64,000 nt of DNA from positions 9,486,001-9,550,000 of the forward strand of contig OY540810.1 in assembly GCA_961205875.1 (NCBI GenBank), written 5' to 3'. The notes beneath the pieces are model-generated. The model was given only the letters and a program-made list of their open reading frames with translations. It was not told the DNA's origin and did no database searches. This document shows, piece by piece, positions 15,256 through 62,364 of this stretch. Source of the stretch: Sialis fuliginosa. Its lineage: Eukaryota > Arthropoda > Insecta > Megaloptera > Sialidae. The position numbers and the translations under genes are program-made. Numbering within the stretch: position 1 is the stretch's first letter; each line of letters starts with the position of its first letter.

Positions 15256-17185
15256 AAATTTATCATTTTTGTTAAGTAACATGAAAACTGGTTTCCCAAG
15301 GAAAAAATGTTGTTTGTATAATTTTTAGAGCAATATATCTCAATCTATACGAGATAGGTGGTAATTTTTTTTACCCTTCACCTTCTATATGACTTTCCTG
15401 CCGAATTGAATATGATCAATTAAAACCCCTCATCTGTGACGGGCTGAAATAATGAAGATCCAAAATCCTATGAAAATTAGCTAACATTACTATGCTGATT
15501 TAAGAGTTGAGGGATGGAATGTCAAAAGTCTTATTATAATCTTATAATTGCTTTACTATGTATTATAAGTTCCGAGGATATAAGACATATTTTATTTGCA
15601 TCAGTTGTCTCGAGTTTACCACCGAGGAATACGTAGTTTTACTTCAAAAAATGAGTGATTAAAAAAATTCAAAAAGTACGAAATTCGTTGTATAGCCTAA
15701 TATCAAACAAATTATAAGAACACATTTTAGAATTATTTTTATTTATGTGCAATCCTCGAAAAATTTTAGGTCGTCAATGCGGCCCGTAGATCAATTTGGG
15801 TTGACCAGGCCCGTATTAACCAATCAAAAATAATATCTTCAGTGTACTATAAACTACGCCCCACAACAAAATAACTATGCAGTCCAATTACATGACAACC
15901 CTGTTTTCATATTTTGACTCGACTCCTTATGCTGCAGTACACAAAAAGCTATTTCAAATTTAAATATCCTTCTCATTCTTTAAACTGTAGTGCGTCAGAT
16001 ATTATCATCTAGCATTTGTCTTCAAAATTAAATACGTATTCCATTCTCAGCATCCGCTAGCTGGCGTTGCCTTTCTTCTTTTGATAACGCATACACCTCA
16101 TCCTATAATTTTTGTTTCTTTAACATCCACATTAAATTTCCTCATCTCTTCCTTACAGAGATACTTATCGTACTTTGTAATTCAACTCATTATCTCTTTA
16201 AGTATTTGCTTCCCCTATCTTCTATCTACCTCCCCTGCATACCCCCTTCTGCTCTTTACGGGTTTCGTCAAGGCTTCACGTAATGTACATTAACTTTAAA
16301 GTGTTGAGAAAATAAGGTTTGGGCTGGTTCTTTTATCAATAACGATACTGTAATTAATCTAATTTACGTTTAATGATATCTTTATGATTTATTTCTCTTT
16401 CGAGATTTTTATGTGATAATATTTATATGTAGTATAAGAAAGTATTAAACCGATTTTGACATATTTTTTAAAACAACTGGAAACGGATATTTATTATTTG
16501 TTATTTTTTTAATTTTTCAAATTATTTGTGTATAAGAAAAAAATTATAAAATAAATGTTTGTAGAGAATATTGTTATAATTTATCTGATAGGAATAGTTT
16601 GAGTTATTAAATTTTAACAGTGTACTGAGATTAAGAGAAAAACAGTGAAACAAATAATTAATTTGATATGGAAATCATATTTCAAGCTCTTATCAACAAA
16701 AAATTACAGACATAAATTATAGGAAAAAATGAGCCGAAAACTCAAGCGTATTTTTTTTAAATATTAATCCACTAACCAGAAGTGTCTTTAAAACTCTGAT
16801 GATGATAGTATTGTTATTGAAACACGTGTAAATCTAAACTCGTAGTTAGGAAATTTGTATTTTTTAGGCAAAATATTAAATTAAAATTGAAACTTAATAT
16901 TTAAAAATCATTCGTTTAGGATTCCTACAACAAAATAAACGTTAAATATACAAATAAAACATATAACAGGATGTTTGCGATATCTTAAGGATAATTTGGA
17001 AGATTTAGTTTGGCCTTCGTTCAGCTTGAGAGTCAAGGATATGTCTCCTAGTTCCAGGTTCATCCTACTTTCTTATTCACCATACGTAATCGCCATTCAC
17101 ATTAGATTTTGTCGTGCCTCTTCACTGTTAAGGCGATACGCTTGTCACACACAAACACACATACACACTACACACGTGTTCAGTG
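15256..17185. other. No gene; possible hAT end near 15.77-15.82 kb
   Basis: At 15775-15812 AATGCGGCCCGTAGATCAAT and then GGTTGACCAGGCCCG looks like the GCGGCCCG...GGCCAGCCC type of hAT terminus, in degraded form. Elsewhere AT-rich. The pyrimidine-rich stretch at 16081-16293 gives a 70-codon frame with no domain. Confidence 0.4.
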
Positions 17186-38549: not shown

Positions 38550-39238
38550 TTAGCGGAATATTAATATTCAAGAAACTGGTTCCAGAAACTACGCTCCTGG
38601 CTTTTTATACCCCTTCTCTTCATGTCCCTCATTAGCTGGTGGCAATAAGAGAAAAATTATATTCTTGAGGTGGTTCACAGTGGCGTTACCAAATTATTTT
38701 GAGGAGGGGGATTTACCAACGAGGGTACCATTACACATATAAAATCATGTAACCAGCTGGCCTACACTAGCTACGCCACTGAAGAGGATCTCCCCCCCCG
38801 CTCGTTACGTCACTGGTGGTTTACCACTTTTGATAACTACATGTATCTATTAGATGGAAATTTCGATCTATTCTTTCAGAATGAATTTTATAGTAAATAT
38901 GAGTAATAAAACTTATTGAAGTATGTCTCGCGGATTTTGATGTTCAATCACTACTGAAAAAGTGAAAACCGACGTCCAAGTTTTAAGAATTTTTATTTTT
39001 TCATTAATAACGCGAAAATTTTGAAATCCAGTTTAGTCATTTTTCAATATTTGTAAAAAAACTTTTGTTATTGTTAAATTGTTAACTAAAATTACTTGCA
39101 TAACAACAATATGATTATATTAAACCACGAACATTAATAATTACAAATTAATTAAAATTTGCAATAAGAATTAGAAATCTTGAGGTTAAGAATAGAGTCC
39201 TACTGGATTGGTCGGAATAAATTTTTGACCAATGCTGT
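38550..39238. other. No gene supported
   Basis: Two stretches resembling the ends of a single repeat (CACAGTGGCGTTACCAAATT at 38688 and ACGTCACTGGTGG at 38808) lie about 120 bp apart. AGTGGCGTTACC/CGTCACTGG suggests a short inverted-repeat element, but I could not fix its ends. Confidence 0.35.
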
Positions 39239-39239
39239 G

Positions 39240-39335
39240 TCAGTCTGGATCTATTAGGCTCCTAATGAGGTCTTCATGTGAAGTCGAAACACGCGTCGAG
39301 TGAAATTATTTTATTGTGGTTAATGTTTAGTAAAA
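39240..39335 (+). ncRNA. Decayed hammerhead-like motif, Penelope-type cassette
   Basis: Aligned with the 58.77- and 60.78-kb copies: CTATTAGGCTC, then CTAATGAG (39262-39269), a hairpin of CTTC/GAAG with ATGT loop, GAAAC, ACGC, GTC, GAG and TTTTATTGTGGTTAA. The core has CTAATGA in place of CTGATGA, so the essential G5 of a hammerhead is A. It lacks the 34-bp tail and the left arm. It should be inactive. Confidence 0.6.
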
Positions 39336-39417
39336 ATCACTAAAGAACCTTAAAATCTTGTTTATTAATTTGATGCAATAATTTATTTTATTGGATAGTT
39401 GATTAAATAAGGCAAAA

Positions 39418-44275: not shown

Positions 44276-45180
44276 TGGTTTTGTATATTATTAAACTAAA
44301 TCGTTTTTTTTATTGATTATGAACTATGTTTTGTTTTTGTTTTGCTAATTTTCCTGGACTGCTATTTGAACACCATATTATGCACACATACTTAAAATGA
44401 TAATTGAAGATTTTAACTTCATAATCAATCAATGAAATTTCCACAACATCCAATACTAAAAAACATAACTGTCAAAGCGAAAAAAAAATGTGGCACGTAT
44501 AAACTGATAAAATTGAAACTGACGCCGAAACGGTACAGTGAGCAGTAGCGGAATAATATCTAACATTGTGGAAACACAACATTATTAATGTACAGAGCGT
44601 TTTATAGAGTACAACGCAGACTGAAAATGATGACGAAACGTTTATCAAGGCTGGTAAAGCGGTCAGACAACACGGACTTCTGATTAGCTCTGGGAATTCA
44701 GCGATCATCAGTCTGAATTACTTTTCTTATCAATTCAATGAACAATATTTCTCATCTGCAGATAAATTGGTGTATATTTATTTTCGGCCCGGATGTGTTT
44801 GTTTTTGTCTCTCTCGTGCACATACGGTTTGTTGCAGTTGATCCCATGGTGGTTGTTTATATTAAAACATTTTAATCAATTTTAATGTTATGTTTTTCGT
44901 GCAAAAAGATATAACGTTTCGATGGTGGTTCGGTTGAAAAATGGTCTTCCCGTATTTACGGATCATGTTAATAATATGAATTGCTTTTGTTCAATTCATT
45001 ACAAAAAAAATATAGATTATTTATGTTCAGTGCTTTTGTTGGAATTGAAATTTTTCAGTTAATTATACAGTATATTCCAAAATTTAACATTTAGCCTTTG
45101 GATAAATGTAACGACGTGCTATTGGTGTAGTTTTAAATGTCGCCATGATACAAATTAATACATTTTAAATTAATCAATTC
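44276..45180. other. No gene supported
   Basis: A 78-codon minus-strand frame at 44472-44708 is Cys/Ser/Leu-rich without a family signature. Confidence 0.45.
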
Positions 45181-45182
45181 AA

Positions 45183-45287
45183 AATGGAATTATTAGGCTC
45201 CTGATGAGGCCTAAATGTGAAATCAAAACACGTGTTGGGTGACATTGATTTATTGTGGTTTAGGTGTATATATTTAGTTATCTAGAA
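45183..45287 (+). ncRNA. Decayed hammerhead-like motif, cut by a hAT MITE
   Basis: AATGGAATTATTAGGCTC leads into CTGATGAG (45201-45208), which is intact. The helix II segment (GCCTAAATGTGAAATC) no longer pairs well, and GAAAC is changed to AAAAC, so the second half of the core is lost. Then ACGTG, TTGGGTGACATTG and TTATTGTGGTTTAGGTGTAT follow as in the other copies. The sequence is interrupted at TATCTAGAA by the 129-bp MITE, and the bases after it faintly resemble the cassette's 34-bp tail. Confidence 0.55.
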
Positions 45288-58660: not shown

Positions 58661-58694
58661 AGGTCAATTTATTAATATTAATAATTACAACCAT

Positions 58695-58889
58695 TTAAAC
58701 TAAAATATACACCTTAACCACAAAAAACAATGTCACTCGACACGTGTTTCCAGACTGGAACTGTTAGGCTCCTGGTGAGGACTTCTTGTGAAGTCGAAAC
58801 ACGTGTCGAGTGACATTGTTTTTTTGTGGTTAAGGTGTATATTTTAGTTTAAGTGACTAGAAACCACAGTTTCTCCGTTTTTCCAGTAG
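58695..58889 (+). mobile_element. Hammerhead cassette (Penelope-type), copy with 13-bp duplication
   Basis: A 195-bp insertion bounded by the direct repeat TAATTACAACCAT (58682-58694 and 58890-58902). The uninterrupted target is visible in family Q at 19.05 kb. The order is: left arm (TTAAACTAAAATATACACCT to ACTCGACACGTG), central motif, right arm (ACACGTGTCGAGTGACATTG to TAGTTTAAGTG), and the 34-bp tail from ACTAGAAACCACAGTTTCTC to TTTTTCCAGTAG. The arms are reverse complements of about 55 bp. Long imprecise duplications and a constant 3' end suggest retrotransposition. A Penelope-like origin is inferred from the hammerhead-like centre, since no reverse transcriptase is present. Confidence 0.75.
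58758..58820 (+). ncRNA. Hammerhead-like motif with broken core
   Basis: GTTAGGCTC, then CTGGTGAG (58772-58779), a hairpin GACTTC-TTGT-GAAGTC, GAAAC (58796-58800), ACGT, GTC (58805-58807) and GAGTGACATTG. The pattern is that of a hammerhead: core, helix II, GAA, short helix III, GUC cleavage site and helix I (CTC with GAG). The core reads CTGGTGA, not CTGATGA, so the essential A6 is G and cleavage is not expected. Confidence 0.6.
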
Positions 58890-59099
58890 TAATTACAACC
58901 ATACTTATGCCAAAAACACTGCATTTGTGTTTTGAAATGATTGTTTTCATTAAAAATTTTGTTAATAAAATGTTGTTATATCATAATTATTATATTTATG
59001 TTTGATTTGTAGAGAATAGTAATAAAATTTCAAAATTTAGGGAAAATCAGACCGGAATTTACCAGTTCAAACCGGAATTCCGGTACACCTTTAATTATA

Positions 59100-60235: not shown

Positions 60236-60667
60236 GTTTCTATAATATAGGTTGAGAGTACAAAATATGAAATATTGCTTATATTTTCTAAAATATTCAT
60301 TATTTAAAAAAAATATTTTAGCAAAAAATTTCAGGGAAATTATTTCTAATCTTAAAAAAAAGTACTATTAGTTGCGTTGTTATGCCATTCAACTCTATTT
60401 TTTAAATGAGAACATATCTATTTTATTGATTTTATGAATAGATCTTATTTTTTTGCATACAACCCTGTAAAATTTTAATGAGACTGCAACCGAAATATTT
60501 AGAGAAAAATGAACTTTTATAATCTCAGATCACATTACTATAACTTAACCTAGTAAGCCTTGAAAAATGATTAACTTGTAAAACATAAACAACGATATAA
60601 CAACCAAATAAATTAATTTAAATCCAATTTTAATAACACTTTACAATAAATAAATAAATTCTTTTTT

Positions 60668-60859
60668 CTACTGGAAAAACGGAGAAACTGTGGTTTCTAG
60701 TCACTTAAACTAAATTATACACCTTAACCACAATAAAACAATGTCACTCGACACGTGTTTCGACTTCACAAGAAGTCCTCATCAGGAGCCTTACAGTTCC
60801 AGACACGTGTCGAGTGACATTGTTTTATTGTGGTTAAGGTGTATATTTTAGTTTAAGTG
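60668..60859 (-). mobile_element. Hammerhead cassette (Penelope-type), best preserved copy
   Basis: A 192-bp insertion bounded by AAATTCTTTTTT on both sides (60656-60667 and 60860-60871). On the minus strand it begins CACTTAAACTAAAATATACA and ends with the 34-bp tail (ACTAGAAACCACAGTTTCTC to TTTTTCCAGTAG), which is identical to the tail of the 58.7-kb copy. The arms 60702-60758 and 60803-60859 are reverse complements with about one mismatch and enclose a 44-nt centre. Two copies with the same ends and different target duplications show that this is a discrete mobile unit. No protein is encoded, so movement would need an outside reverse transcriptase. Confidence 0.8.
60740..60800 (-). ncRNA. 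Hammerhead-like ribozyme motif with intact core
   Basis: Minus strand, 5' to 3': AACTGTAAGG, CTC, CTGATGAG (60785-60778), GACTTC-TTGT-GAAGTC as helix II, GAAAC (60761-60757), ACGT, GTC (60752-60750), GAGTGACATTG. All three conserved parts of a hammerhead (CUGANGA, GAA, UH cleavage site) are present in the right order. Odd points: there is one extra G between CUGAUGA and the best-paired helix II, and helix III is only about two pairs (AC/GU) closed by ACGU, so activity as a monomer is doubtful. The self-complementary ACACGUGU could form a longer helix III between two molecules. Helix I has CTC/GAG next to the core. Activity is not shown by sequence alone. Confidence 0.6.
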
Positions 60860-60964
60860 AAATTCTTTTTTGATGTTTTACAAGTTTCAGTCATTTTTCA
60901 AGGCTTGCTTGGTTCAGTTGTAATGTAATCTGAGATTATAAAAGTTAAAACATATTAAGACACC

Positions 60965-61020: not shown

Positions 61021-61356
61021 TGAAAGAAACGTGTCAACAATTCGTTTTATATTAATATTTACACTCATACCTATATCATTGTGTGAGTGGAGTATATTTT
61101 TGTTCACGGTAGTTCTACGTCCTCAAAAACGTAGAAATGAAATAATGAGATAAGGATTTTTAAGTGTCGCTCTTATCTAACTTATATATATTTTTCAGTT
61201 GCTGCTGTTGTCAATAGAGTGCGTGCGGACAGAATGAAGTATTTTTTTTTTGGCGAGTGTGATTCACGGAAAGTGGTTCATTATTTTTATTTTTTACGAC
61301 GGTACTGCAACAACGTCATATTTTTTATCCTAGTTTTTATGTGCGAAGGGAAAAAA
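61021..61356. other. No gene supported
   Basis: AT-rich with a short hairpin (AGTTCTACGTCC... ACGTAGAAAT near 61110). No coding frame. Confidence 0.4.
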
Positions 61357-61930
61357 CCTTCTGAAACATCAGTGTAAAAAATATTTACAAGTTAAGGGTT
61401 GTGGAGATAATACAATCATATGAATTGCTTTGTTTATAGATTATTATTTATCTATGATACTGGCACCAGTCTTGGCCGCTTTAAGAGCAAGGTGTATTGT
61501 TTTTTGTAATTATCATGCACTCATATTACTAATAAAATAAGTAACTCTCTATTAAATCAATTTAATTACCAAAACCTTCTGAAACATCAGTGTAAAAAAT
61601 ATTTACAAGTTAGGGGTTGTAGAGATAATACAATCATATGAATTGCTTTGTTTATAGATTATTATTTATCTATGATACTGGCACCAGTCTTGGCCGCTTT
61701 AAGAGCAAGGTGTATTGTTTTTTGTAATTATCATGCACTCATATTACTAATAAAACAAGTACCTCTATTACAAGTTAGGGGTTGTAGAGATAATACAATC
61801 ATATGAATTGCTTTGTTTATAGATTATTATTTATCTATGATACTGGCACCAGTCTTGGCCGCTTTAAGAGCAAGGTGTATTGTTTTTTGTAATTATCATG
61901 CACTCATATTACTAATAAAACAAATACCTC
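61357..61930 (+). repeat. Three nested tandem copies of the R1 5' end and its flank
   Basis: CCTTCTGAAACATCAGTGTA starts at 61357 and again at 61575 (period 218). ACAAGTTA(A/G)GGGTTGTGG or its variant occurs at 61387, 61605 and 61770 (periods 218 and 165). Each copy carries TCATATGAATTGCTTTGTTT, GATACTGGCACCAGTCTTGG, CCGCTTTAAGAGCAAGGTGT and TATTACTAATAAAA. The copies are almost identical, so the duplications are recent. Because unique flank is copied with the element's end, this arose by local duplication and not by three insertions. Confidence 0.85.
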
Positions 61931-62364
61931 TATTAAATCAATTTAATTACCAAATTCCGCAAATATAGTTAGTTTTTATTTTAATTATAGCCTTTTATTT
62001 TACTTATGTTTTTCTCCAAGAATTGATAAAGAAAATCAGTTATGGGCACCTAGTGATGGACACTTGCTAATGATTACAAAATGATAAGTACTACGACACA
62101 AAAGTTATAATCGTAAAATTTGAAACAATGTAAAGCAGATGCTATGATAATATAATAATTAATGAATAGATTACACTTCTAATTGTTTAAATGTTCGCCA
62201 TTTTGACACCCATTGATTGATTGTCAGCATATTTAAGCTGTTTTAGAGTTAATTGTCTATATGTAGATTATGATTCAGTAATGGCAAATATTTTAAATTT
62301 AGTATATTTAATTAAACAAATACCCAACACTGGGGTATTGTCCGAGACTGGTGCCAGTACCTTA
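61457..62364 (+). repeat. R1, copy 6 (full, with duplicated 5' end)
   Basis: After the tandem 5' units it continues with CTATTAAATCAATTTAATTA, CAAATTCCGCAAATATAG, TGGACACTTGCTAATGATTA, ATGATAATATAATAATTAAT, ACCCAACACTGGGGTATTGT and the right end CGAGACTGGTGCCAGTACCT. It shows both inverted ends of R1 clearly. The 60-codon frame at 62221-62403 is derived from it. Confidence 0.75.

Follow-up and report, generated by a model that had tools for sequence, protein, structure and literature searches.

A minimal type I hammerhead motif in fold-back copies of a probable Penelope-like family in Sialis fuliginosa

In a 64,000-nt stretch of the Sialis fuliginosa genome (the window; contig OY540810.1, positions 9,486,001 to 9,550,000), the minus strand carries at 60743..60790 what is, by its letters, a minimal type I hammerhead with predicted cleavage activity, a kind of ribozyme that is already known. 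The motif sits in a short insertion, here called c60. The likely reading is that the hammerhead is the minimal type I motif of a Penelope-like family, and c60 a solo pseudo-LTR (pLTR) fold-back of that family, formed via two-strand priming.

The hammerhead motif and its cassette

The letters of the motif are assigned as follows, from a reading of the sequence:

60743..60790, minus strand: minimal type I hammerhead (helix I strands, core, helices II and III, cleavage site)
60790-60786, minus strand: GGCTC, helix I strand side
60779..60785, minus strand: CTGATGA core (C3 to A9)
60778, minus strand: extra G at the boundary between core and helix II
60762..60777, minus strand: helix II, GACTTC/TTGT/GAAGTC, with TTGT as the loop
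60750..60761, minus strand: GAAA, two-pair helix III with ACGT loop, and C17; predicted cut after 60750
60761-60747, minus strand, letter by letter: GAAA 60761-60758; C 60757; ACGT 60756-60753; GTC 60752-60750; GAG 60749-60747

Every core letter is in place, with CUGANGA, GAAA and UH following each other in the three-helix order of a hammerhead. Helix I consists of three Watson-Crick pairs (CUC/GAG) and one G-U, helix II of six pairs closed by the TTGT loop, and helix III of an A-U and a C-G pair around ACGT, which fall within the palindrome ACACGUGU. The initial annotation had described a hammerhead-like motif with an intact core, a helix III of about two pairs and one extra G between core and helix II, and all of these are confirmed on the minus strand; its predicted cut, between 60750 and 60749, agrees with the hammerhead letters as re-read here. 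The residue at the position of 60778 is G in 28 of 29 ungapped matches and A in the remaining one; an extra nucleotide before helix II has a known example in a viroid hammerhead.

In a descriptor scan, the c60 site is the sole match in the window, while 400 equally long order-1 Markov windows yield two loose matches, none of them combining a 6-bp helix II with the 6-nt helix III unit. The covariance-model check proposed in the initial annotation gave matches below threshold only: without the left arm, Hammerhead_1 reaches 17.7 bits against a gathering score of 34, and with the arm, Hammerhead_3 reaches 22.7 bits against one of 48.5; at gathering score, the Rfam search returned no match. Such low scores are probably a property of minimal hammerhead variants. 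A search of the own genome with RF00008 returned no match, nor did its 14 controls, so that this search is uninformative. Covariation is absent from the family (0 pairs with two-sided change in 16 distinct rows) because the copies are too alike. A divergent hammerhead-like site at 16795-16831 on the plus strand has an extra U before helix II, GAAACACGUGU, A as H17 and a weak helix I; its core is kept and its helix II letters differ from those of c60 (17.4 bits, E 0.018).

By predicted energies, imposing the hammerhead fold carries a penalty of ~11 kcal/mol for the direct unit (see below) and of ~28 kcal/mol for the whole c60 cassette, so that c60 on its own would probably perform poorly as a cis-acting ribozyme. 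The direct unit might nevertheless act as a dimer through a ACACGUGU self-duplex (predicted at -10.3 kcal/mol), or together with a protein. In the predicted fold of another direct unit, at L033, the 5' CTGGAA pairs with TTCCAG at the tail end to form a panhandle.

The cassette and its relatives in the window are:

60668..60859, minus strand: c60, a 192-bp insertion of an inverted partial unit followed by a direct unit and tail
60656..60667, unstranded: 3' target-site duplication of c60, AAAAAAGAATTT
60860..60871, unstranded: 5' target-site duplication of c60, AAAAAAGAATTT
60668..60804, minus strand: direct unit of c60, starting at position 3 of the 139-nt unit
60803..60859, plus strand: inverted partial unit copy of c60, tail-less, reaching to unit position 49
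60668..60700, minus strand: tail of c60, on the direct side only, with an AGAAAC/AGTTTCT hairpin
58695..58889, plus strand: c58, a second full copy with damaged core (A6 to G)
58682-58694 and 58890-58902: target duplications of c58, TAATTACAACCAT
39238..39340, plus strand: c39, an older copy without inverted arm, core damaged (G5 to A)
45180..45285, plus strand: c45, an older copy without inverted arm, core damaged (GAAA to AAAA)

The hammerhead occupies the loop of a 63-nt inverted repeat, a feature absent from the initial annotation; the left arm of this repeat is the inverted partial unit copy. BLAST of the c60 neighbourhood against the window finds three further copies (c58, c39, c45), making four in all, and a core letter is changed in all three of the others. 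With the 192-bp insertion, its target duplication of 12 bp and the repeat family around it, the small mobile cassette that the initial annotation had proposed is established. The cassette is in turn hosted by a separate inverted-repeat element at 60512-60946, with arms of about 85 nt (60512-60595 and 60864-60946) that are 85-96% complementary in pieces. At 61353-61931, the window also holds three copies of a 196-nt repeat, with start spacings of 218 and 165 and a ACTGGTGCCAGT-type hairpin, an inverted relative of which lies at 62342-62364.

The repeat family and its junctions

A 23-letter word of the element has 940 exact matches in the 392 Mb of genome searched, compared to 0 for the reversed word as control. 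This number counts words, not copies: some cassettes hold the word twice and mutated copies are missed, so that the copy number is bounded only, at several hundred or more. Among the 100 places listed for this word there are, by eye, 12 pairs in opposite orientation within 200 bp, which are cassettes of this kind. With c60 as query, 40 loci were scored of 1959 candidates, and the best 30 of these 40, c60 and c58 included, were read; both the selection by score and the use of c60 as query favour full, young copies that resemble c60. The core is intact in 25 of these best 30 copies and damaged in five, c58 among them. Genome slices from 21 loci, 202 kb in total, contain one additional copy, at L017, which has the hammerhead region without an inverted arm. 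A second, divergent piece of the unit lies at L032 (223-314), with 77% identity, in opposite orientation and ~1.2 kb from the cassette. A pattern scan of viral contigs gave five matches, of which the three examined (L001, L003, L005) were judged by eye to be due to chance.

The 30 copies are insertions with a common head-to-head arrangement. Their right part is the direct unit, running from CAGTCTGG through the hammerhead and an AT-rich stretch to GTTTAAGTG, and then the tail, which ends in CCAGTA; their left part repeats the unit as its reverse complement, inward from GTTTAAGTG and tail-less. The tail of ~34 nt is thus found on the direct side in 30/30 copies and on the inverted side in 0/30, which matches Penelope-like elements, where one pLTR carries a tail of about 30-40 bp. 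Flanking words of one and the same copy share a median of 12 letters (29 copies, L046 having been dropped as its left end was not found), and at least 7 letters are shared in 24/29 copies, compared to 14% of 812 cross pairs; in a few copies, for example L032 and L047, the script visibly misplaced the ends. The copies therefore carry target-site duplications, as expected of a Penelope-like element.

The inner ends are variable. The inverted arm stops at scattered points over unit positions 28 to 64, and the direct unit begins at U1 in 11 of the 30 copies, at U2-U3 in 8 and at U4-U14 in 11. The junction is gapless in 17 copies and has extra or changed letters in the other 13; microhomology of 1-2 nt is present in 16 of the 17 gapless junctions, against a null of 0.40 from the same sequences (P ~5e-6).

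Direct units cross the cleavage site in 30/30 copies; their templates were therefore uncut there. A footprint of the hammerhead in the junctions was considered and rejected: 4/30 copies have an inverted arm that terminates at unit position 58, the cut site (P 0.024, for a site chosen post hoc), and among 27 junctions from the whole genome the gap of 2-3 that corresponds to a stop at the cut is found in 5, compared to 5 with gap 14 and 4 with gap 5, so that there is no excess over other microhomology sites. These 27 junctions are the intersection, matched by hand among the matches listed, of two pattern lists (pattern A, 102 matches, control 16; pattern B, 87 matches, reversed control 48), which were intersected because pattern B has a high chance background. 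As all 30 direct units run through the hammerhead and the 27 junctions have no excess at the cut, cutting was not needed for these insertions, in agreement with the in vitro result for the Anolis element PAc (PMC11167929). At L053 and L054, the inverted arm by eye leaves out the hammerhead core and continues in the unit sequence upstream of it, which looks like a jump along the template over the ribozyme.

A longer copy, the proposed route of insertion and its alternatives

One locus, L057, picked for two inverted 23-letter words 1.4 kb apart, holds a longer copy: the unit lies inverted at the left (5') end, followed by two decayed ORFs and a direct unit, here without tail, at the right. In this one decayed copy, the unit thus flanks the ORFs on either side, in the manner of the pLTRs of Penelope-like elements, which often include an inverted copy. 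An unrelated insert sits between the two ORFs; at ~640-1052, it has by eye terminal inverted repeats GGGTGCGTTTAG / CTAAACGCACCC and splits the ORF region. The first ORF may correspond to the C-terminal part of a Penelope reverse transcriptase, which it resembles, and the second has, by eye, GIY-X10-YIE with CxxC in between, which we take to be the order of a Penelope endonuclease; the assignment of these linked ORFs to Penelope proteins is a tentative one, made by eye. Searches of the two ORFs against Pfam, NCBIfam and PDB gave weak unrelated matches or none (weak unrelated library matches for the first, of which only the C-terminal piece is present; no match in any of the three for the second, the GIY-YIG candidate), and phage proteins gave no support. 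The two genomic matches of Pfam GIY-YIG (PF01541) both lie away from the listed ORF places, and of the 150 RVT_1 matches scored among 1392 candidates, one lies by eye within 1.5 kb of a listed ORF place (on C14), on the wrong side of it.

The second ORF has at least 150 scored relatives in the genome, among them a candidate for a full-length element at G000 C9 with open frames of 854 and 815 aa. At nine such ORF places, in the listed part of C1, the hammerhead word follows 3' on the same strand in three, at distances of 182, 193 and 193 bp; L057 is itself one of the three, leaving 2 of 8 others, where ~0.01 would be expected within 1 kb. Five ORF relatives at G000:C10:3223679-3253357 are spaced regularly at ~7.37 kb, in the manner of a tandem array. 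In L057, the A of CAGTC follows the start of TATAAATA by 31 nt; the letters of this putative promoter were seen in this one copy only. None of the 10 solo copies with intact CAGTCTGGAA shares more than one further upstream letter with L057 (L055, with a changed start, could by eye share three), and this lack of sharing upstream of CAGTCTGGAA points to the unit start as probably the RNA start.

This anatomy, compared with that in PMC11167929 and in the excerpted parts of PMC3846280, supports the Penelope reading of the initial annotation: a unit at both ends, with the left one inverted, a one-sided tail of ~34 nt and duplications of about 12 bp. The fold-backs may accordingly be pictured as arising in the following way. 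An RNA would start at the pLTR promoter, at the CAGTC 31 nt after TATAAATA (a start read from the letters of one copy), and would be reverse transcribed from the end of the ~34-nt tail to its own 5' end, across a hammerhead left uncut. The other target strand would prime a second cDNA, beginning at the inner end of the tail and running part-way; the two cDNA ends would then be joined via 1-2 nt of microhomology, to yield a head-to-head fold-back of ~190 bp between target duplications of ~12 bp. The sequences themselves show the insertion, the arrangement and the microhomology; the two-strand priming we infer from this anatomy together with what PAc does in vitro. If the ribozyme is active, its cut would fall between 60750 and 60749, likeliest as a ACACGUGU dimer or with an element protein; in c60, the inverted arm would keep the RNA paired in a long hairpin, to the detriment of the hammerhead fold. 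A more specific proposal, which we take seriously without calling it probable, is that the cassettes are frozen integration intermediates, in which a dimeric enzyme, using two RNAs, primed one cDNA on each target strand from separate starts at the two ends of the tail, and the 3' ends of the cDNAs became fused via microhomology. If so, the genome would record the stop point of each cDNA, copy by copy, and the hammerhead would have been uncut in those direct-strand templates that inserted.

Other accounts of the cassette attach to its hairpin or to its ribozyme. The long inverted repeat could be the helix III of a type III hammerhead, with the ribozyme in the hairpin loop and cleavage behind the left-arm GTC (after 60802), as Hammerhead_3 scores 22.7 bits with the arm compared to 17.7 for type I without it, and c60 has a three-way junction of the type III kind as its MFE fold. 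Helix I would then begin with a U-C clash or use up C3, however, and the Rfam score is still below gathering; moreover, ACACGTGTC stands directly before the direct unit in 2/30 copies by pattern (L030 being a third by eye), rarely kept by the left arm because the junction varies, and c39, c45 and L017 carry the hammerhead region without the arm, all of which makes this reading very improbable. The asymmetry of the ends, with the tail on one side in 30/30 copies, speaks against a cut-and-paste MITE whose terminal inverted repeats happen to enclose a hammerhead-like word: the 63-nt inverted repeat and the target duplications would suit such an element, but its repeats should be symmetric, the junction and length differ among copies, and in L057 the unit is a terminal repeat that flanks decayed ORFs, so that we regard a MITE as extremely improbable. 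A small, non-coding, AT-rich, high-copy element with a type I motif would also suit a metazoan non-LTR retrozyme, one of the small tandem elements that move via circular RNA made by the hammerhead, and excerpts of PMC7229834 report such elements in many invertebrates, insects included. Yet a BLAST search with the unit detects no head-to-tail pair at any of the 30 loci (~3.2 kb each), L017 or L057; the second piece at L032 is separate, ~1.2 kb away and in opposite orientation; the direct unit extends across the cut site in each of the 30 copies; and the unit is also the terminal repeat of the longer, ORF-bearing copy L057. This leaves a retrozyme quite improbable.

Two further alternatives concern the origin of the inverted arm and the state of the ribozyme. 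In one, the inverted arm arose by self-priming, when the palindrome GACACGTGTC folded onto itself and served as primer, as the excerpted parts of PMC3846280 argue for the palindromes of rotifer Penelope elements; the junction of c60 is indeed located at GACACGTGTC. Across the 30 copies, however, the arm ends scatter (positions 28 to 64) and join positions 1-14 with microhomology, and this scatter disfavours a single palindrome as their origin; we consider self-priming unlikely. In the other, the motif is a dead relic, its core kept in c60 merely because this copy is young, which would fit a family without covariation, the damaged cores in 5/30 copies and in the three other window copies (c58 being counted in both), and the energetically disfavoured hammerhead fold. 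It is harder to square with the site at 16795-16831, which keeps the core, the extra nucleotide and GAAACACGUGU despite a differing helix II, albeit at an E of 0.018 only, and we hold it to be doubtful, though with a real chance of being right. Two-strand priming in a Penelope-like family thus remains the preferred reading, and the hundreds of short copies are a large natural set of insertion junctions on which it could be tested against self-priming.

Relation to known systems

Literature searches showed, by title among the papers listed first, nothing on hammerheads within inverted repeats, and none joining Penelope, hammerhead and aphid was found; neither result is a claim of wider absence. 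In its excerpted part, PMC7761336 calls the role of the hammerhead for Penelope-like elements a mystery. Metazoan retrozymes, as described in excerpts of PMC7229834, are likewise small non-coding elements with type I hammerheads, and the axolotl retrozyme motif also has a weak helix III and a palindromic tetraloop; retrozymes are, however, tandem repeats expressed as circular RNAs, whereas none is tandem in the loci studied here. The Penelope elements of Adineta vaga have, according to excerpts of PMC3846280, an inverted pLTR, a tail and target-site duplications of 8-10 bp; the junctions of the present family vary and show microhomology, where that account stresses junction palindromes.

PAc, a Poseidon element of Anolis carolinensis, cleaves and extends both target strands, and its reverse transcription begins inside the RNA, at two start sites that bound the tail; its hammerhead cut solely in the presence of the protein and was dispensable for insertion in vitro (PMC11167929). 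The c60 family resembles PAc in having the hammerhead in the pLTR region, a tail between two (here proposed) reverse-transcription start sites, a stem loop at the start site, and AT-rich targets, those of the c60 family being so by eye. It differs in that the PAc cut site lies 26 bp after the ORF start codon, whereas the ATG that overlaps the core here opens a frame of 12 codons only, and in that the form retrieved here is the head-to-head solo fold-back. Minimal hammerheads of Penelope-like elements are covered, in the excerpts of PMC7761336 and PMC6155905, by citation of Cervera and De la Pena 2014 and Lunse et al. 2017. As these excerpts have it, the published motifs are minimal type I hammerheads with a minimal core and a helix III that is very short or absent, located in the pseudo-LTR and possibly active as dimers, all as in c60; in the c60 family, an extra G lies between A9 and helix II and is nearly fixed.
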